Shown here: positions 7,756 through 52,813 of the stretch, in pieces | Layout: every line of letters begins with the position of its first letter | Position numbering within the stretch: position 1 is the first letter of the stretch | DNA from: Flavobacterium piscinae | GTDB taxonomy: Bacteria; Bacteroidota; Bacteroidia; Flavobacteriales; Flavobacteriaceae | Length of the DNA stretch: 64,000 bases | Assembly (NCBI RefSeq): GCF_004122145.1 | Contig: NZ_SBKQ01000003.1 | Span: 124,001-188,000, forward strand | Direction of reading: 5' to 3' | Made by a program: the position numbers and the translations under genes | Notes under the pieces: generated by a model | Told to the model about the DNA's origin: nothing | The model's input: the letters and a program-made list of their open reading frames with translations, nothing else | The model's database searches: none

Positions 7756-7911
7756 GCACCAACCCCCTAGCCCCGATTGCAATGGAAGCCTTGTGCAGTC
7801 AAAGCTGATTTTTTCTTGCTGACCCAAAGCGACCGGCGGAAGCTCTTGGGGCGGCTTAGAAAAAACAGCTTTAACAAACAAGCTTGGAATGGAAAGCGGG
7901 ATTGGCTTCTA
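7756..7911 (+). repeat. structured intergenic element, copy 1 of 3
   Basis: One of three related ~145-base elements in the window. Shared boxes: GCCCCGAT at 7770, GCGACC at 7829 and a GGAATGGAAAGCGGG box near 7886. The predicted fold has an outer stem AAAGCTG (7801-7807) with CAGCTTT (7866-7872), an unpaired A at 7808, TTTTTTC (7809-7815) with GAAAAAA (7859-7865), and an inner stem CCCAA (7823-7827) with TTGGG (7846-7850). It ends six bases from the alpha-2-macroglobulin stop codon. Frames crossing it are not genes. Confidence 0.75.
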
Positions 7912-7917
7912 ATAAAA

Positions 7918-10900
7918 CTACTCCTTCACCACTTCCACCCACTGCCCCAAGGTTCGTGCCGCATACGTGTTGTCGTACATCGCTTCGGCTTGCATGCCGG
8001 GTAAATAGTAACGACCCAAATACGACGCATTCAACAGCACCCGGAATGTTCTGGACTCGTAGGCTTTGAGACCAAAATAGAAATTGGTGCGGTCGTCACG
8101 AATGTCAATATGGTCAGCTACATTGTTGCCAAAACTGCCAAAATCGGTGAAACGCGTATTCACAATTTCAAATCCGGACGGTAAAATTTGCGTCAACGCC
8201 ACGTTTTCTATTCGTTCATTAGTTTGATTTCGAACAGTGATTTCAGCAATAAACTCAGTGCCTTGAGCAATTTTAGTCACGTTTATCGGTGCTCCGCTTC
8301 GGTTTTTGAAAACCAAATTGGTGAACAACTTACTTTGCATGGCTTTTTCCTGCCCGATTGGTAAAATGCCACTCGTTAGCACCCGCACATACAAGGTATT
8401 GGATTGGGTGTTTTTGAGCGTAATGGAATTGCTTCCGGTTTTGATTTCCAAATTTCGATTGGCCAACGATTTGGCGGTTTTAATATTTTGCGGTTTTCCA
8501 TTAACGGAATACGTAACAGCTACCCCTTTTCCGCCGTTTTGTTGAGCAAATTTGGACATGGCATACAAACTATACGCCGTGGTTTGGGTGCTCATCCATT
8601 GATCAGAAGCCATATTTTTAGCCAAATCGGTTGCCATTTTGAACGCTCTCTGTTTGTTGCCAATTAAAATTAAGGCTTCCAATGCCATCGCTTTATTGCG
8701 GTCAGACGAGCCGTAATAGTAGTAATAATTGGGGTTGGAATCGTCAATTTTACTTTGGTTGAATACGCTCTGAGCCGCTTGTTTTTGGCCGGCCAAGGCA
8801 TACGCAGCCGCTAAACGCAATTTACTTTCGTTGGAAATTCCTGTGGTTTCACGCAAACGGTTCATCGAAGCCATATCGGGTGAGCCGGCCAAAGCCAACG
8901 TATATAAGCGATAGGCTTGAGCAAAATCGTTTCCGTTTTTGGCAAATCGCCATTCTTTGGCTGTTTTTTGTTGGTATCCTATCCATTTGGCTTTGAAATT
9001 CAGTGGCAATACATAGCCTTTTTTCTCGGCTTCAATCAAGAAATGTCCTACGTAGGATGAACTCCAATCGTCGGCATAATTTTGTCCGCTCCAATATGAG
9101 AATCCGCCATTTGATATTTGGAAACCGCCTAATTTTTGAATGCCGATTTTGATGTTTTTCTGAATTTCGTTTTTGCGATTTTGGTCTAAATCGAAAATAT
9201 CGGCCAAATACAATTGCGGAAACACACTCGACGTGGTTTGCTCCAAACAACCGTGTGGATACTGAATCAAATACTGTAATCTTCTGCTAAAATCAATGGT
9301 CGGGAAAGACGAAACTTCCAATTGAGCTTTGTTGCTTCCGGCGACACCAAAGGTAGAAACAGCTATTGTTTTTGAAGCATTGGGCTCTAACACAATATCG
9401 GTAAACTCATTCGTTATCGGATTTGGGTTTGTGATATCGAGTTCTACTTCGTATGTGGCTTTTTCGTTTCCGGAAGTGGCGATGATTTGTACTTTAGCCA
9501 ATCCGGTGGCACTGCCGACTTCCAAATTGAAATACGCCATTTTTTCATCGGGTTGAGAAAAAGTCACACTTTGTGAACTGCTTCCCACTACTTTCACGCC
9601 GTTATTGGTTTTGATTTGTACGTTAACATTTTTCACTTGGGGTTCCATTGCAAAAAGGGTCACAGGTAACGTTACTTTTTCGGAAGGTGAAATTTTTCGT
9701 GGCAGCGAAGCCAATACCATCAACGGTTTTCGAACCGGAGTGGTTTTTTCAGCTGCTCCGTAAGCACTAGATTTTACATCGCCCGCCACTACCATCGTGC
9801 GAACCGAACCGACATAATTGGGTAGCTTGATTTGATGCGTTTTGCTTTGTCCTTTTTCCAACTTGAATGGTCCTAAATAAATGACCACCGGTTTAAAACG
9901 ATTGGCTTTTTTGGCTTTACTTCCGCCTAAATCTTCATCCCCACCAATACTGAACACTTGGTTGATTCTTCCGCCGTATGCTCCAATTACGTCATCAAAA
10001 ATATCCCAAGTTTTTACGCCTAATGCTTCACGCGTGTAGAAACTATTCCATGCGTTGGGAGTTTTGAAACGGGTCAAATCCAACAAACCATCATCTACAA
10101 TAGCCAAAGTATAAGTCATGGCTTTTCCTGATTTTTCGCTTACACGGATACTGGTTTTGCTTTCCGGTTTCAACACTTCGGGCATACTGATTTGTGGTTC
10201 TAGAATCGTGTTTTTATCGATGACCTCTATTGGAACAATGCCATACAAACGAATAGGCGAATCATTCAAAGTGGACGCATGCGGTTGTAATAAGGTAATG
10301 TGGACAAACACGTTCGGAGCAATGTCGCCCGTAATTGGAATTTCCACTTTGGTTTCTCCTTTTTGTGTGGTTGCCCAAAGGGTTTTTACCACACGTGAAC
10401 CATTTTCCAACGAAATTAAGGCTCTTCCTCCGGCACTCGATGGAAAGGAAATTTTGGCTTTTTCGCCTACGGAATAGTTCTTTTTATCCGTAGAAAATAG
10501 CAACATCGAAGCGTTGGAGGAATCGGTGTTTCGAGTTTTTCCCGACCAATACGGCCAATCAATCATTACGGTAGAACCGGTAGCGTGTCCACCCTCTTCA
10601 TCCATTACTCGGATTAAATAGCGACCCCATTCATTTTCTTCGTTTTTGAATTGAATGCTGGCTTTGCCACTTGCATTCGTATTTACGGTGAAATTCTTAA
10701 ACGCTGTTGTGGAATTAGACGACACATAGCTGGAAAGGTTATCATAACTCGCATCCCACCACCAACGCCATTCTACTTTATACACTTGTACTTTTAGGTT
10801 TTGAACTGCTTTTGGATTTCCTTTTTCATCTAAGGTTACAATGTCAAAGCGATTCATTTTTCCGGTTTCCAATAAACCGTAACGGTTTGGATCAGGCGTT

Positions 10901-13416
10901 TTAAGTCCAATATACGTTTGGTAAGGCGAAAGTGTCGCCGCCATCACATCGGTACTAAAATCGCCCCCGTTTTCATAGACTTTGGTCATCAAACTGGCTT
11001 TCAACATGCCGGGTGATTCGGTGCTTACTTTCGGTTGAAAACTGACGGTTGCTTTTCCTTCTGCATTTACTTTTCCGCTGAAAATATTGGTTTCTTCCGT
11101 TTCAAATTGCCGAATCGGGTCATCAAAATTGTAATTAGCAAATCCTTTGAACGTCGTTTTTTGTTGCATGATTTTGGCTTGCATTTCCATTTTGAGGTCT
11201 TTCGCTACAGCACCATGCAACCAAGCGACTTCCACTTGACTCGTATTGATTTTTGAGGTGGATAACATCTCAGCATTAAATTTGTTTTTGATTTTTAACC
11301 GGTTAGGTTTAATCGTTTCAATTTTGATGTTTTTGTAAAACCGAGCTCCACCGACACTGATTACCGCTTCCCAACTTCCGGTAGGATGAGCCTCACGAGT
11401 AGGAATGATAAATTTATAATGATTAAGTTCATTGTATTTTTGAACGGATTGAAACGTCAATTTTCCGGTAGGGTCATTCAATTTGAATTTAATCGGATGT
11501 GATTTATCCAATTTACTGGCAGCATCATTCAGCATAAACCCTAAAAACAAGGTATCACCGGGACGCCAAACGCCTCTTTCGCCATAAATATAGCCTTTGA
11601 GTCCTTTTTGTAATTTTTCACCGGATACATCAAAATTACTCACGGAGAGCGAATAGCCTTCATCTAACTTCACATAAGTAGCTTGTTTATCTTTGGAAAC
11701 AATAGCAAAAAAGGCATATTTATCCACTTGAAACGAAGTCATTCCTTCCGCATTAGTGTTTCCGGATGCTAATTTTTGTTGTTGAAAATCATACAATTCT
11801 ACTTTTGCTCCGCTTATTGGTTGTGTCGTAACAATGTTGGTAACCGCCAAAGTATAAGAACCGTTTTCCCCACGTTTGGCAATTACACCCAAATCGGAAG
11901 CCAATACATTCATGCCGATTGGACCACGACGGTAATAATCTAATTCGCATGGGTCTTGACTGTCATACCAATCGTAATCATCATACCAATAATAATCGTA
12001 ATAATCGTCATCGTTGGAACGCACTTCTTCACTTTCTTCTTCACTATCGGATTCCGATTCCGTTACAGAATTACTACAACTGTACAAAGAATAACTTTTT
12101 TTGAACGACATTTCCACCCGATAAATCGCACCTGGTTCGGGAGTGATAATTTTAGATAAATCAATAGCAAATGTGTTCCACTTACTGTAATTGGGTAATT
12201 TTTTATCTAACAAATTAATTGTTTGTTTGGCTACAGGCGAAGCAACTTTTCGCAGGTTTCGCTTGCCGTTCAAATTGTTGTCTTGTAAGAATTGAAGAAT
12301 GTTGTTTTTGTAGATTTTATATACTTTGACATCCACCGCTTTTAAGTTGGCCGATTCAAAATTGATTTTTAAATTGTTAGAACTCGGTAAAATCGTTCCA
12401 TTTTTCACAAATCGAATATTGGGTTTCATTTCGTTGAACGCCACACGTTGCGAATGCGTTTCTTTCATTTTATAGCCTTCGTCGCTCGAAATTCCCTGAA
12501 AAACTTCTACCAACAAATCGCCTTTGAGTGGTTCACTAAAAAAGACTTTAAGTAAATTACCTTCGATAATAAATTTAGAAGTTTGAGCCAATTCAACCGC
12601 CACTAATCCTTGTAAATCCTGTCCTTTTTTGATAGGGTCAGAAAAATTAATGAACAACGATTGATTGTCTTCATCGCCTACTTCCATTCCAACAATTTTA
12701 AAATTGTTTTTGCCCGGAATGTCATACTCTACACTTCCTTTTTGGTCGATGTTGAACGGTTTTCCGTTCCATGAAATAGTGATTTTACTGTCTTCAACTT
12801 TACGTTGAATGCTATCGATGATGAATTTGAATTCGGTTTTCGTGCTAAGCGATTTATCGAACTTCATTTTTAATTTCTTCCCGTCTTGTGTAGCCTCTAC
12901 CAATTGTGAAGCCGTTTCAAAATCCATCCAATCACTGGTTTGAATGGTTCCGTTTAAATAATTCAACTCTCGGCTATACGATTGTAAATCCAAAAGGTTC
13001 ACTGTAAAATCTTGTTTGACTGTTTTAACAGAAAACTTAAATTCTTCCAATCCTTTTTCCGTTTTGATAAGCTTGGCTAATTTGAAAATAATACGATATT
13101 CGGTGTCTTGTTCCAATGGTTTTTCAGGCACAAAAGCAATAGTGTTGGTCGCCAATGCAACCATTTTACCTTTAATACTCGGAGAAATGTCAAATAAACC
13201 CGCATCAATTTCCTGATTCGGCTGCCATTCTGTTTTGTCAAACGCTAACGTCACCCTGATGTCCGAGTGAGCCGATTGCAATCCGGAACTAAAACTAAGG
13301 ATATAGTTTTCGTACTTCGAAAAATCAGAATTGAATTCTTCGGTAGAAACTTTTTTGCCACAAGAGTGTAGCACAACAACCGCAACAAAAAGTTGCATCA
13401 AACGTTGGATTGACAT
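7918..13416 (-). CDS. alpha-2-macroglobulin family lipoprotein
   Basis: 1832-residue bacterial alpha-2-macroglobulin (YfhM type), thought to trap attacking proteases by a thioester and to work with PBP1C in guarding or repairing the envelope. The signal MSIQRLMQLFVAVVVLHSC has a lipobox (Cys19). The body is a chain of macroglobulin-like beta domains followed by a helical thioester domain with the intact HGCLEQ motif (Cys1390, Gln1393) and a C-terminal receptor-like domain. A low-complexity acidic and Tyr-rich segment, about residues 447-495, is bracketed by cysteines and is not typical of the family. pbpC lies downstream on the same strand. Confidence 0.92.
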   Translation of the reverse strand: MSIQRLMQLFVAVVVLHSCGKKVSTEEFNSDFSKYENYILSFSSGLQSAHSDIRVTLAFDKTEWQPNQEIDAGLFDISPSIKGKMVALATNTIAFVPEKPLEQDTEYRIIFKLAKLIKTEKGLEEFKFSVKTVKQDFTVNLLDLQSYSRELNYLNGTIQTSDWMDFETASQLVEATQDGKKLKMKFDKSLSTKTEFKFIIDSIQRKVEDSKITISWNGKPFNIDQKGSVEYDIPGKNNFKIVGMEVGDEDNQSLFINFSDPIKKGQDLQGLVAVELAQTSKFIIEGNLLKVFFSEPLKGDLLVEVFQGISSDEGYKMKETHSQRVAFNEMKPNIRFVKNGTILPSSNNLKINFESANLKAVDVKVYKIYKNNILQFLQDNNLNGKRNLRKVASPVAKQTINLLDKKLPNYSKWNTFAIDLSKIITPEPGAIYRVEMSFKKSYSLYSCSNSVTESESDSEEESEEVRSNDDDYYDYYWYDDYDWYDSQDPCELDYYRRGPIGMNVLASDLGVIAKRGENGSYTLAVTNIVTTQPISGAKVELYDFQQQKLASGNTNAEGMTSFQVDKYAFFAIVSKDKQATYVKLDEGYSLSVSNFDVSGEKLQKGLKGYIYGERGVWRPGDTLFLGFMLNDAASKLDKSHPIKFKLNDPTGKLTFQSVQKYNELNHYKFIIPTREAHPTGSWEAVISVGGARFYKNIKIETIKPNRLKIKNKFNAEMLSTSKINTSQVEVAWLHGAVAKDLKMEMQAKIMQQKTTFKGFANYNFDDPIRQFETEETNIFSGKVNAEGKATVSFQPKVSTESPGMLKASLMTKVYENGGDFSTDVMAATLSPYQTYIGLKTPDPNRYGLLETGKMNRFDIVTLDEKGNPKAVQNLKVQVYKVEWRWWWDASYDNLSSYVSSNSTTAFKNFTVNTNASGKASIQFKNEENEWGRYLIRVMDEEGGHATGSTVMIDWPYWSGKTRNTDSSNASMLLFSTDKKNYSVGEKAKISFPSSAGGRALISLENGSRVVKTLWATTQKGETKVEIPITGDIAPNVFVHITLLQPHASTLNDSPIRLYGIVPIEVIDKNTILEPQISMPEVLKPESKTSIRVSEKSGKAMTYTLAIVDDGLLDLTRFKTPNAWNSFYTREALGVKTWDIFDDVIGAYGGRINQVFSIGGDEDLGGSKAKKANRFKPVVIYLGPFKLEKGQSKTHQIKLPNYVGSVRTMVVAGDVKSSAYGAAEKTTPVRKPLMVLASLPRKISPSEKVTLPVTLFAMEPQVKNVNVQIKTNNGVKVVGSSSQSVTFSQPDEKMAYFNLEVGSATGLAKVQIIATSGNEKATYEVELDITNPNPITNEFTDIVLEPNASKTIAVSTFGVAGSNKAQLEVSSFPTIDFSRRLQYLIQYPHGCLEQTTSSVFPQLYLADIFDLDQNRKNEIQKNIKIGIQKLGGFQISNGGFSYWSGQNYADDWSSSYVGHFLIEAEKKGYVLPLNFKAKWIGYQQKTAKEWRFAKNGNDFAQAYRLYTLALAGSPDMASMNRLRETTGISNESKLRLAAAYALAGQKQAAQSVFNQSKIDDSNPNYYYYYGSSDRNKAMALEALILIGNKQRAFKMATDLAKNMASDQWMSTQTTAYSLYAMSKFAQQNGGKGVAVTYSVNGKPQNIKTAKSLANRNLEIKTGSNSITLKNTQSNTLYVRVLTSGILPIGQEKAMQSKLFTNLVFKNRSGAPINVTKIAQGTEFIAEITVRNQTNERIENVALTQILPSGFEIVNTRFTDFGSFGNNVADHIDIRDDRTNFYFGLKAYESRTFRVLLNASYLGRYYLPGMQAEAMYDNTYAARTLGQWVEVVKE

Positions 13417-18142: not shown

Positions 18143-18592
18143 CTAAAGGTGTTTTTTCATGCAAATACTATTTTCAACCCCGCTGTATTGTCCATAGTTT
18201 TCAATTAGCTGATAGCCCATTTTTTGATATAAAGAAATGGCAACTTTTAACTCTACACCGGTTTCAAGAATAGCTATAGAATAATTTTCTTCTCTTGCCC
18301 AATTTTCCAATTCAGTTAAAATTGTTTTTGCTATTCCTTTTCCTCTTTGTTCTGGAAAGGTAAACATTCTTTTTATTTCTATTGTTTCAGAATCGTATTC
18401 TTTGTAAGCCCCAATGCCAACAGGAATTGTATTTTCATACGCTATTAGTGCATTTTTTAATAAATTCGATTTATTGTATTGGGAATAAAATGCATGGTCT
18501 TCTCCATCAATCTCCTGTAAATAAGCATCGAGTTGAACTACCAAACTTTGAAAATCTGTATGATCTGATGTTGTGCGAAGTAAATCAATCAT
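18143..18592 (-). CDS. GNAT family N-acetyltransferase
   Basis: 149 residues of the GNAT fold. The acetyl-CoA loop is EQRGKGIAKTIL and the preceding strand is TIEIKRMFTFP; the C-terminal part (YQKMGYQLIENYGQYSG) is typical of small-molecule GNATs. The acceptor cannot be told from sequence. The start codon lies five bases beyond the stop of the 74-residue gene upstream, so they are translated from one mRNA. Confidence 0.85.
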   Translation of the reverse strand: MIDLLRTTSDHTDFQSLVVQLDAYLQEIDGEDHAFYSQYNKSNLLKNALIAYENTIPVGIGAYKEYDSETIEIKRMFTFPEQRGKGIAKTILTELENWAREENYSIAILETGVELKVAISLYQKMGYQLIENYGQYSGVENSICMKKHL

Positions 18593-18597
18593 TGAAC

Positions 18598-18822
18598 TTA
18601 CTTTTTGTCGTTTGCTAAGAAGAATATTTTAGATTTCTTTGGGTATTGATTATAACTGATATCGCTTGGGTTTTCAATTACCGATTTAATATTAATTTCG
18701 TCGCCGAGATTGAAATTGGCTTCGGTATATTTGTAGTCTAACAAATATTCTCCACAGAAATAATTCCCCTTCTCATCCTTTTCGATGATGCCGGTGTAGA
18801 TTCCTTTTTTATCTTTTGACAT
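18598..18822 (-). CDS. hypothetical 74-residue protein
   Basis: Starts at ATG 18822 (MSKDKKGIYTGIIEKDEKGN). The open frame extends further upstream, but that part translates a repeat element and lies before the promoter box, so the short start is chosen. Predicted to be strand-rich, with GEYLLDYKYTEANFNLGDEI; possibly a small OB- or SH3-like protein. No recognised family. A TACATTTG box on the minus strand lies 19 bases upstream of the ATG. Confidence 0.75.
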   Translation of the reverse strand: MSKDKKGIYTGIIEKDEKGNYFCGEYLLDYKYTEANFNLGDEINIKSVIENPSDISYNQYPKKSKIFFLANDKK

Positions 18823-18840
18823 GATTGTTGAATTGATTTT

Positions 18841-18848
18841 CAAATGTA
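18841..18848 (-). promoter_or_regulatory. -7 box for the 74-residue gene and the acetyltransferase
   Basis: CAAATGTA reads TACATTTG on the minus strand, an exact consensus match placing the transcript start about 13 bases before ATG 18822. It separates this transcription unit from atpD-atpC upstream. Confidence 0.5.
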
Positions 18849-18903
18849 CGAATTGAAAGTTGAAATAAGAAGAATTTGAAAGGAATTGGTTTCGAAGTCG
18901 GTT

Positions 18904-19046
18904 ATAGCCCCGATAGTAGTGAAAAGCCTTTTGCAGGATTGTTGCATTTTTTCTTGGTAAAAAAGAGCGACCTTGGGAGCTACTTTTTTGACTTAGAAAA
19001 AAGCAACAAGACAAAAAAGCTTGTAACGAATAGCGGAAAATAGCTT
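18904..19046 (+). repeat. structured intergenic element, copy 2 of 3
   Basis: Second copy of the ~145-base element. Boxes: GCCCCGATAGTAGTG at 18907, GCGACC at 18967, and AATAGCGGAAAATAGC at the end. The fold is clearest here: TTGTTGC (18939-18945) with GCAACAA (19003-19009), an unpaired A at 18946, TTTTTTC (18947-18953) with GAAAAAA (18996-19002), and an inner stem AAAAAAG (18959-18965) with CTTTTTT (18983-18989) around a loop starting AGCGACC and ending GGGAGCT. It lies between the atpC terminator and the next gene. Confidence 0.8.
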
Positions 19047-19080
19047 CAAAAAAAAAGTCACACATTGCTGTATGACTTTA
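19046..19080 (-). terminator. atpC terminator
   Basis: Stem AAAGTCA (19054-19060) with TGACTTT (19073-19079). Read on the minus strand it runs into nine T residues, 23 bases after the atpC stop. Confidence 0.75.
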
Positions 19081-19102
19081 GTCTTTGTTATTTTTAAAAA
19101 GA

Positions 19103-19384
19103 TTAATCGGCTAGAACGATTACTTTATTGTCTTTCATTTCGATTGTTCCCGAAGCAATTTCCAATGTATAAGTTTGGTCATTTACTTTGGCAAACTTTC
19201 CGGCTACCTCTTTGTTTATTTTGAAACTTGGAGCAAAAATTTTTATAGTTCCTTGCTTTAAAATAGAAACGATAGGTGCGTGATTATTTAAAATTTGAAA
19301 GGATCCGTCAACACCCGGTAGGGTGATTGAGTTGATTTCGCCTTTAAATAAAGTGGCTTCCGGGGATACTATTTCTAAAATCAT
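19103..19384 (-). CDS. atpC: ATP synthase F1 epsilon subunit
   Basis: 93-residue epsilon subunit of the F1 sector, linking the rotor to the catalytic head. It has only the N-terminal beta-sandwich (LEIVSPEATLFKGEINSITL, DGSFQILNNHAPIVS); the C-terminal inhibitory helical hairpin found in ~135-residue homologues is absent, as usual in Bacteroidota. It follows atpD with a 70-base spacer. The other F1Fo genes are not in the window, so the atpD-atpC pair is split from the main atp operon. Confidence 0.93.
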   Translation of the reverse strand: MILEIVSPEATLFKGEINSITLPGVDGSFQILNNHAPIVSILKQGTIKIFAPSFKINKEVAGKFAKVNDQTYTLEIASGTIEMKDNKVIVLAD

Positions 19385-19390
19385 TTTATT

Positions 19391-19451
19391 TAGTTTACAG
19401 TCTCAGTTTGCAGTCTCAGTCCTGAAAACTGAAAACTGAAAACTGACAACT
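19391..19451. repeat. short tandem repeats in the atpD-atpC spacer
   Basis: Two copies of CAGTCTCAGT-like sequence are followed by three head-to-tail CTGAAAA units. They fill most of the spacer between the two F1 genes and may tune the relative yield of epsilon, though that is speculation. Confidence 0.55.
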
Positions 19452-19454
19452 TGA

Positions 19455-20969
<1,515 letters not shown>

Positions 20970-50500: not shown

Positions 50501-51277
50501 CTACTCTTTAATCTTTAGCAACGACGTTTTTATCCCACGAATCAAAGCCGAACTAAATCCTTGATGCTCCATTTCATTTAAACCAACAATGGTACAACCT
50601 TGTGGAGTAGTTACTCGGTCTATCAATTGTTCGGGATGAATTTTTTCCTCTAAAGCCATTTTGGCTGCTCCTTTGGCGGTTTGGGAGGCAATGGCTAAGG
50701 CGGTTTGAGCATCAAAACCGATTTCGATGCCGGCTTGCATCGAAGCACGGATGTATCGCAAGGCATAAGCAGTGCCGCACGCACCCAGAACCGTGGCGGC
50801 ATCCATTAATTTTTCTTCAATAACAATTGCTGTTCCTAAGTGGTTAAATAGCGAAACAACTTGTTCTCCAGCTTCTTTATTTTTCTCTGAAAACGAAATA
50901 CACGTAGCACTTTCGGCAAATTGTGCGGCAATGTTTGGCATAATCCGAACGATGGGATGTGCTACTTTTGTTTTTTGTTGTAAAGTTTCCAATGAAACGC
51001 CACTGACTGCAGAAGCGATTATTTTGTTGGAAATATGTGGTAAAATCTCGTTTACTACCGTGTCAATTTGATAGGGTTTAATGGTGAGAATAATTACATC
51101 AGCTTGATCAATATTTTCGATGTTGTTGGAGGAAACAGTGATTCCGTTTTGAGAAAGATGCTGAATTTGAGCCGTATTTCTTCGGGTAATCGTGATGTGA
51201 TTTCCTTTGGAAAAATTGGCTAATCCAACTGCAATGGCAACACCAAGGTTACCTCCTCCGATGATATGAATGTTCAT
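50501..51277 (-). CDS. proC: pyrroline-5-carboxylate reductase
   Basis: Last step of proline synthesis, NADPH-dependent. 258 residues. N-terminal Rossmann motif IIGGGNLGVAIA, the ASAVSGVSLETLQQ segment, and the C-terminal dimerisation helix with ALAIASQTAKGAAKM and DRVTTPQGCTIVGL (family consensus has SPGGTT). 18 bases upstream of the dehydrogenase-VOC gene and on the same strand. Confidence 0.9.
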   Translation of the reverse strand: MNIHIIGGGNLGVAIAVGLANFSKGNHITITRRNTAQIQHLSQNGITVSSNNIENIDQADVIILTIKPYQIDTVVNEILPHISNKIIASAVSGVSLETLQQKTKVAHPIVRIMPNIAAQFAESATCISFSEKNKEAGEQVVSLFNHLGTAIVIEEKLMDAATVLGACGTAYALRYIRASMQAGIEIGFDAQTALAIASQTAKGAAKMALEEKIHPEQLIDRVTTPQGCTIVGLNEMEHQGFSSALIRGIKTSLLKIKE

Positions 51278-51301
51278 GGTTATAGATTGATTTACGGTTT
51301 G

Positions 51302-51448
51302 TGCCCCTGATAGTAGCGGAAATCCTTTTGAAAGGCGGGCTTAGTTTTTGTTGCTCAAAAATTGCGACCAAAGGAAGCACATTTTTGGGCTTATAAAAAC
51401 AAGCCTGACTGAAAAAGATTGAAGCGGATAGCAGGTTTTGGCACCCTA
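51302..51448 (+). repeat. structured intergenic element, copy 3 of 3
   Basis: Third copy. Boxes: GCCCCTGATAGTAGCGG at 51303, GCGACC at 51364, GAAGCGGATAGC at 51421. Fold: GGCTT (51338-51342) with AAGCC (51401-51405), unpaired A at 51343, GTTTTT (51344-51349) with AAAAAC (51395-51400), inner stem CAAAAAT (51356-51362) with ATTTTTG (51381-51387). It ends 13 bases before the mgtE stop codon and precedes proC. Confidence 0.8.
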
Positions 51449-51460
51449 AAAATACAAATT

Positions 51461-52813
51461 TTAGAATCCCAAGATGGCTTTTGCGATGGAAAAATAGATT
51501 AAAATCCCAAAGATGTCGTTACTGGTGGTAATAAATGGTCCGGTGGCCAATGCGGGATCGATACCATATTTATTTAAAGTGATGGGCACAAACGTTCCGA
51601 TGAGTGATGCGATGACGATGACGGAAATAAGTGCGATGGCCACAGTGATGCCGATAATATATTCAACTCCGAGTAGAAAATGACTACCGAGAAGAAGAAT
51701 TATGGAAAGAATAAGTCCGTTAAAAAGGCTCAATCGCATTTCTTTATAAAGCCGTTGCCAAATAGTTCCACCTAATGTATTATTGGCTAAACCCTGCACA
51801 ATAATTGCGGATGATTGTACACCCACATTTCCTGCCATGGCGGCAATAAGAGGTGTAAAAAAGAATAAAACGCCGTATTTTTCCATGGCTCCTTCAAATT
51901 GTCCGGAGACTTTAACGGCGATGAATCCACCCAAAAGTGCTAAAACCAGCCAAGGAAGTCTTGCTTTGGTGAGTTCGAGAATGCTGTCATCTGCTTCAAC
52001 GTCTTGCGAGATACCGGCGGCTAATTGGTAATCTTTATCGGCTTCATCTTTGATGACATCGATGATGTCGTCGATGGTAATTCGACCCACTAATCGTCCT
52101 AATTCATCCACAACCGGAATGGCTTCTAAGTCGTATTTTTGCATGATACGAGCGACTTCAACGTCTTTGGTATCTACTTTTACATAATCCACTTTTGGAA
52201 TATAGACTTCGCTAATAGGTGTTTTGGTGGAAGTGGTTAATAAATCTTTAAGCGATAATCGTCCTTTGAGTCGATTTTCGTCATCCACCACATAAATAGA
52301 ATGAACACGTGAAACATTTTCGGCTTGGATTCGCATTTCTTTCACACAAGTGAGTACGTTCCAGTTTTCATTGACTTTCACGAGCTCTTTCCCCATTAAC
52401 CCTCCGGCAGAATCTTCGTCGTAACGCAACAAATCGACAATGTCTTTGGCGTGTTCAACATCTTCTAATTCGGAAATTACCTGTTCTTTTCGCTCTTGCG
52501 GAAGTTCAGCAATAATGTCGGCCGCATCATCGGTGGAAAGCTCGTCTAACTCTTCGGCAATTTCTTTTGGGGTTAGTTTTCGCAGGATTTTTTCACGTAC
52601 TTCTTCATCTAATTCGAGAAGAATTTCGGATGTTTTTTCGGAATCAAGCGTGTTAAAAATATAAATAGCTCCGTAATCATCAAGTTCTTCCATGATTTCG
52701 GCAATATCAGCATAATGGATTTCCTGAAGCAAGTCGAGAAGTTCCTGCTCCTTATTTTCCTTAATTAATTGCTCAATTTGACTGAGAAATTCTCTGCTGA
52801 TTTTAAACTCCAT
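51461..52813 (-). CDS. mgtE: magnesium transporter MgtE
   Basis: Mg2+ channel of the inner membrane, 450 residues, normal length. Cytoplasmic N domain (about 1-130, superhelical [17 protein letters not shown]), two CBS domains (about 135-255) that gate the pore on Mg2+ binding, then five membrane helices (about 280-448; [20 protein letters not shown]). Its first 11 bases overlap the end of rsmA, so the two are translationally coupled. Confidence 0.93.

Follow-up and report, generated by a model that had tools for sequence, protein, structure and literature searches.

Three hairpins in gene spacers of Flavobacterium piscinae lie within a 64,000-nucleotide stretch of contig NZ_SBKQ01000003.1 (hereafter the window) and share a fold while differing in much of their sequence, raising the question of what kind of element they are and whether the fold serves a function where it stands. 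Covariation among dispersed copies does not on its own tell an RNA gene apart from a mobile palindrome; a comparison of orthologous sites can do so. A covariance model of the whole hairpin (R1, 148 positions) recovers the three copies in the window, all on the + strand and located as in the initial annotation, and a model of the 60-nt inner arm (R2) finds the inner part of each. The features are:

7765-7911, + strand: copy 1, long Flavo-1 (R1 142.7 bits; RF01705 39.8 bits, cut-off 42)
7809-7868, + strand: inner arm of copy 1, with conserved apex GCGACC..GRAGC (R2 73.9 bits)
18902-19049, + strand: copy 2, long Flavo-1 (R1 149.3 bits; RF01705 52.7 bits)
18947-19005, + strand: inner arm of copy 2 (R2 71.6 bits)
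19054-19079, - strand: intrinsic terminator of atpC, beside copy 2 and outside the element (consensus scan)
51299-51446, + strand: copy 3, long Flavo-1 (R1 142.4 bits; RF01705 48.9 bits)
51344-51403, + strand: inner arm of copy 3 (R2 76 bits)

The spacing from the GCCCC box to the GCGACC box, described initially as near-constant, is 59, 60 and 61 bases when counted from the sequence.

Family identity

Judged by sequence and model scores, the three hairpins are elements of a known family, Flavo-1 (Rfam RF01705), and belong to a long subform of ~148 nt with an integral inner arm. The initial annotation knew of no named family and mentioned Flavo-1 only as a comparison; that comparison supplies the name, with copies 2 and 3 passing the RF01705 gathering cut-off in an Rfam search and copy 1 scoring just under it. 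In all three copies, positions 1-76 of the 76 in the Rfam model are covered with their structure, the apex being enlarged by the long arm. The long form shares the core sequence, the outer stems and the Bacteroidetes hosts of the Rfam family, but where the Rfam model has a short variable apical stretch (15 positions), long copies hold ~82 nt, including the 60-nt arm of conserved fold and length. Ten further long copies of the same genome score 38.6 to 60.8 bits against RF01705, nine of them above cut-off; these ten are absent from an earlier RF01705 list for the genome, in which 150 of 1017 first-look candidates were scored. The inner arm was considered as a separate element and this was rejected: it is an integral part of the long subform, because all 10 R2 matches in 1.264 Mb fall within long copies that R1 also finds.

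Further copies had been expected in the genome and the genus, and searching with a covariance model, as had been proposed, finds them in both: nine more copies were aligned from F. piscinae, and R1, with 31 candidates per genome scored, has matches in 91 of the 101 Flavobacterium genomes. RF01705 is matched in 22 of 148 Bacteroidota genomes, 17 of them above cut-off (29 candidates scored per genome). With 150 candidates scored, R1 matches 81 places in genome G246, 75 in F. lacus, 52 in G157 and 68 in G192, where all four lists mix in short forms and several entries for G246 and F. lacus are the opposite strand of another match. These copy numbers are lower bounds, part of the first-look candidates having been scored (150 of 1017, or 29 or 31 per genome), and there are several dozen Flavo-1 copies per genome. 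A 400-kb sample of the F. piscinae genome holds three long copies and one short (R1), and an 800-kb sample of G157 and G192 holds four long copies among 14 R1 matches.

Weinberg et al. (2010, PMC2864571), who list Flavo-1 from Bacteroidetes, consider it a probable RNA that is unlikely to be cis-regulatory and is no riboswitch. It is classed by Rfam as type Gene; sRNA, and a review places it among the bacterial sRNA families of highest abundance (PMC9029176). In a transcriptome study of F. psychrophilum, Flavo-1 hits showed no preference for the sense or the antisense side of transcribed regions, many of them mapped outside such regions, and the data offered no real clue to function (PMC9723704). 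The portions of these three papers available to us give no function for Flavo-1 and do not describe insertion, in-place conservation or polarity; a literature search covering sources other than subscription journals and supplements found no paper on its mobility, in-place conservation or polarity. What is new here is the long form and its site-level behaviour, which we did not find described, the family itself being already known.

Fold and covariation

As single-stranded RNA, copies 2 and 3 fold into the same long hairpin, with energies of -40.3 kcal/mol (z -3.46) and -55.0 kcal/mol (z -5.20). The minimum free energy fold of copy 1 (-52.4, z -2.45) deviates in its outer part and has only the inner hairpin in common, its centroid being nearer to the common fold. 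The + strand folds more stably than the - strand in every case (-52.4 against -47.9, -40.3 against -36.5 and -55.0 against -42.0 for copies 1, 2 and 3).

In a model-free alignment of 12 long copies from the F. piscinae genome, RNAalifold predicts a single long hairpin with 43 pairs, and at 26 of these one or more double changes preserve pairing. Paired cells amount to 95.5% (77.4% when shuffled), and the covariation score is 0.502, compared with 0.156 when shuffled (0 of 500 shuffles reach the observed score) and at most 0.140 for slid partners. The single common fold and the pair-keeping base changes proposed in the initial annotation are borne out by these values; covariation no better than chance, named there as grounds for refutation, is contradicted by a score far outside both column shuffles and slid partners. 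In an 88-row alignment from three genomes, which was fitted to the model and in which two rows stand for a wrong-strand match and an additional, weaker match in L374, 96.4% of cells are paired, 37 of 43 pairs have double changes and the covariation score is 0.546, compared with 0.149. The long form is in this sense a defined unit with one fold and demonstrable compensatory change. Palindrome-templated mutation can also yield paired changes, so that covariation among paralogues alone is no proof of function.

The outer core reads approximately TAGCCCYGATWGnAGYGGMAKCC .. ARCGRAWAGCRGG, and the outer stem is broken by two symmetric internal loops of G.A type, whose purines are invariant in the 12 long copies (model-free alignment). 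Pair letters were parsed in 87 of 103 copies with a parser that fixed or restricted several letters (among them the internal-loop G and A and the letters of two pairs), so that invariance in this set is partly built in; one freely parsed pair is CG in 48 copies, TA in 28, GC in 6, AT in 3 and TG in 2. In a set made up mostly of short forms (92 left and 100 right flanks), conservation runs from YYTAGCC to GCTYC, after which comes an A-rich stretch; long copies are conserved for about ten more bases on the left. Upstream motifs and outer repeats were counted at those of the 54 distinct long sites that parsed (40 and 43). An outer inverted repeat, TTTTAGAAGC/GCTTCTGAAAA, is found in a few long copies, and an [AG]AGCAC box lies to the left of 5 of 43 long sites (0.3 when shuffled). 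The Bacteroidetes promoter box, TAnnTTTG, occurs in 2 of the 92 left flanks (mostly short forms) and at 2 of 40 long sites, giving no conserved promoter upstream.

Mismatches within copies are G.T rather than A.C at 66:18 by site, or 24:15 without the four busiest pairs, and at 26:12 in short-form inner stems (parsed set). The + strand is taken as the folded strand with moderate confidence only.

Variants of the unit were also seen. Eight short copies of the F. piscinae genome (L001, L002, L004, L005, L006, L008, L018, L020) have an extra 3' module like CTGAAAAAGCCCGAGCCATTCGCTTC. A related element has the same core and other outer ends (GCGTGAGGGATWG .. GCCCGACCC .. CACGCCCA) at L019, L021, L022, L024, L025, L027, L051, L053 and L054. 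At L121, L123, L126, L133, L135, L144, L146 and L152, ~35 nt stand before GTGCTCC or GTGCTTC, replacing some five bases before the end GCTCCTAAA.

Presence at orthologous sites and probable mobile origin

By our own ORF calls, 10 nt separate the 3' end of copy 1 from the stop codon of a convergent A2M-like gene (7918-13416, - strand), the 3' end of copy 2 abuts the T-tract of the atpC terminator, and copy 3 is placed between mgtE (51461-52813, - strand) and proC (50501-51277, - strand). The atpC terminator is also present at atpC loci that have no element. Copy 2 was itself considered as an intrinsic terminator and rejected, since the atpC terminator is the sole hit of a scan over 18500-19500. 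SINE-like retroposition (an A-rich 3' end at T-runs) was also considered; the T-run belongs to the atpC terminator even at element-free loci.

Among 30 loci fetched for each site across the genus, three filled orthologous sites were found for atpC, one for proC/mgtE and one for A2M, the latter two being filled in F. piscinae only. The atpC loci come from 58 genomes with a match, negatives being judged by eye on 250 bases, with two loci (L079 and L090) ending 156 and 115 bases after the stop; the proC set is 30 loci of 73 and the A2M set 30 of 52, with presence judged by pattern and eye. At the atpC site, F. piscinae and G160 carry a long element and G152 a short one, all in the same orientation and after the terminator, and orthologous copies of copy 2 are present in L273 and L276. 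In seven close relatives, the copy 3 site is filled in three (G246, G248, F. lacus), carries a scar in two (F. orientale, G251) and lacks the element in two (F. filum, G247); no base-exact empty site was obtained among these seven. Presence is thus lineage-specific.

The ends of the element are constant while the flanks are unrelated (92 left and 100 right flanks, mostly of short forms), and no target-site duplication is evident in these flank profiles. The right end comes after a terminator-like hairpin in 15 of 100 type-1 copies, compared with 3.3 in shuffled flanks (range 0-8); the left end does so in 7. We infer a mobile origin from three observations: the element is present at some orthologous sites and absent from others, its ends stay constant although the flanks are unrelated, and some ends adjoin terminators.

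No autonomous partner was found, PF01797 (Y1/RAYT) being the sole family sought. None of 34 PF01797 loci has a Flavo-1 core within 1.5 kb, with a core pattern that recovers 81 of 119 known copies, and G084 and G138 have no PF01797 match. Two ORFs that are RAYT-like by eye match no Pfam family, so that diverged RAYTs may escape this search. Flavo-1 was accordingly not assigned to the RAYT-linked REPs. It resembles REP/BIME elements with RAYT in being a dispersed chromosomal hairpin of gene spacers, often at gene 3' ends, but is longer, has no PF01797 gene within that distance, and is kept at orthologous sites between species. With ERIC, NEMIS/Correia and other MITE-like palindromes it shares the form of an imperfect spacer palindrome of 100-150 nt that is probably non-autonomous; those differ in sequence and hosts, whereas Flavo-1 has an outer inverted repeat in few copies, no target duplication in the flank profiles and two G.A-type internal loops. 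Searches of plasmids and phages with one long copy gave no match, and viral contigs contain no exact match to two consensus patterns.

Other repeats occur at these sites. In the spacer after the A2M gene, relatives (L188, L191, L194, L197, L201, L205, L211) have paired hairpins CCTAACAGGTTTnnAAACCTGTTAGG and an ORF that is RAYT-like by eye, with a YHVYNRGNN motif that we take to be a likeness to RAYT transposases, the two ORFs without a Pfam match being among these; this spacer seems open to many repeats. Some orthologous copies of Flavo-1 contain nested palindromes. The palindrome TCCCGATAGCTATCGGGA, or a close variant, stands in place of the apex in three copies (L317 and L318 at the copy 3 site, and L276:3505-3662 at the copy 1 site), and may be a collapsed Flavo-1 derivative because one half of it, CCCGATAG, is identical to the Flavo-1 left arm. 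Assembly contigs end near Flavo-1 copies in G084 (C4, C6 and C22, at L121, L119 and L123) and in F. piscinae (C2 and C8, at L025 and L013), as expected for a repeat.

Conservation at shared sites

Shared sites were taken from the 30 best-scoring R1 loci of each of G246 (UBA2787) and F. lacus, a choice that may favour conserved copies, together with the window sites in these genomes, and were matched by both flanks to 24 F. piscinae sites, 18 of which are filled in G246 or F. lacus. In 42 pairs, which are not independent (five of 47 having been dropped as repeats of the atpC site), the median identity is 0.909 for the element, 0.844 for coding sequence, 0.569 for 4-fold sites and 0.774 for other spacer. 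With one pair per shared site (n=24), the medians are 0.915, 0.849, 0.577 and 0.744, and element identity is above that of 4-fold sites at all 24 sites, of coding sequence at 19 and of other spacer at 20. The median identity of paralogues within the F. piscinae genome is 0.655.

In 28 orthologous pairs the identity is >0.85, the two copies having the same arms, and in ten it is <=0.80; four pairs of 0.80-0.85 lie outside both groups. In the 28 same-arm pairs, 98 of 2393 paired columns (4.1%) and 217 of 1709 unpaired columns (12.7%) are changed, the stems evolving about three times more slowly than the loops. There are 19 double changes, compared with 2.0 expected if changes were independent, and 15 of the 19 keep pairing; the 13 G246/F. 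lacus pairs alone have 8 compared with 0.8 expected. Single changes that break a pair outnumber those that keep one by 38 to 19, and as outcomes of single changes G.U (19) and A.C (15) are about equal. In the ten pairs of <=0.80, the copies lie at the same site and in the same orientation but differ in their arms; of the 118 double changes here, 110 preserve pairing. At L274:3745-3892, L034 and L035, the junction and site are those of the orthologous copy while the arms are quite different and fully paired; such differences at the same junction would reflect arm replacement, conversion or repeated insertion.

Function in place is suggested because elements at shared sites evolve slowly and with compensated changes. 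A plain mobile palindrome, of MITE or REP type and possibly mobilised in the form of folded ssDNA by a transposase of the HUH or another class, would owe its covariation to recognition during movement, with single copies being functionless. The presence-absence pattern, the constant and T-tract-adjacent ends, the several dozen copies per genome, the nested inserts and scars, and the excess of pair-breaking single changes in same-arm orthologues would all suit such an element, but 91.5% identity at the 24 shared sites against 57.7% at 4-fold sites, stems that change more slowly than loops, and the lack of an adjacent PF01797 gene make this explanation rather unlikely.

Gene context and strand

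At the 54 distinct long sites, the element is placed antisense to co-directional neighbours in 22 cases and sense in 6. At 33 sites it has its 3' end towards a gene stop, at a median distance of 13 nt, and at 14 sites its 5' end, at a median of 75.5 nt. Antisense placement is also seen in a mixed set (42:21) of 100 of 119 copies, from which 16 C-type and three untyped copies were left out. Gene-specific control, as by a cis-regulator of one gene family, was rejected: 13 copies have between them 16 neighbour proteins, 14 with differing Pfam families and two with none.

Proposed origin and action of the element

On balance, Flavo-1 is probably a non-autonomous repeat dispersed over the chromosome, which inserted into spacers as it spread and whose copies were then retained for what the fold does in place. 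The long form is best read as a REP/MITE-like repeat that is now a structure-selected polar element. The initial choice between a structured RNA and a mobilised palindrome stands in so far as the hairpins are more than plain spacer and have a covarying fold; as an either-or it was too sharp, since there is evidence for both a mobile origin and in-place function, which are compatible and which the data ask for together.

In this process, the non-autonomous unit would insert into spacers, its 3' end often coming to lie just past a stop codon or a terminator T-tract, and the inserted copies would be retained as their fold acts in place. The + strand, as RNA or ssDNA, would act in a folded, single-stranded state and be recognised by a protein, serving gene boundaries in general instead of controlling one given gene. 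The most likely mechanism, though we hold it at less than an even chance, is a polar boundary hairpin that would stop or mark transcripts, or a replication fork, as they run into a gene from the 3' end, an action also considered for REP- and ERIC-like repeats.

The Rfam classification suggests instead a structured RNA made from the + strand, acting in trans or in cis and amplified by recombination. The greater stability of + strand folds in copies 1-3, the excess of G.T over A.C mismatches and the in-place conservation are consistent with it, but the G.T bias is carried by few pairs, no conserved promoter motif lies upstream, and the copies number in the dozens with diverged arms beside unlike genes. 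In F. psychrophilum, too, the hits lie sense or antisense indistinctly, many outside transcribed regions, in the portion of that study available to us (PMC9723704), and we regard such an RNA as improbable. Equally doubtful is palindrome-templated mutation, in which one arm is copied from the other in replication and paired changes arise with no selection on the fold: the ten orthologous pairs with different arms and L274, which keeps the junction at the A2M site with other arms, would fit it, but templating would erase the G.A-type loop positions that are invariant in the model-free alignment, and same-arm orthologues change slowly in absolute terms.

Replication polarity of the long form

Orientation to replication was assessed in two complete genomes, G157 and G192, with ori and ter located by a fit to GC skew at third codon positions in which gene strand had its own term. 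The + strand of long copies is opposite to the leading strand at 16:3 in G157 (p = 0.004) and 14:5 in G192 (p = 0.064), or 30:8 in both genomes together (30/38, p = 0.0005). The gene bias and the replication bias look separate, because gene-neutral (convergent or divergent) sites are at 10:2 among 30 loci of the two genomes, with ori and ter placed by eye, and coding sequence is nearly balanced, 51% (G157) and 49% (G192) of it being on the leading strand.

Slow compensated evolution, antisense placement near stops and the polarity of the long form turn an RNA motif of unknown function into a set of testable statements. Beyond the retained-repeat reading favoured above, a bolder one, to which we give little credence, is that long Flavo-1 elements are genus-wide polar hairpins, conserved copy by copy, that mark chromosome direction: a folded-single-strand signal of ~150 nt, oriented by replication and independent of gene direction, derived from a mobile repeat. 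Like the polar chromosome signals KOPS, Chi and AIMS, long copies follow replication in their orientation; unlike these short oligomers, they are ~150 nt long, structured, and present in a few dozen copies. Short copies have no such polarity (21:12 in G157 and 24:25 in G192).
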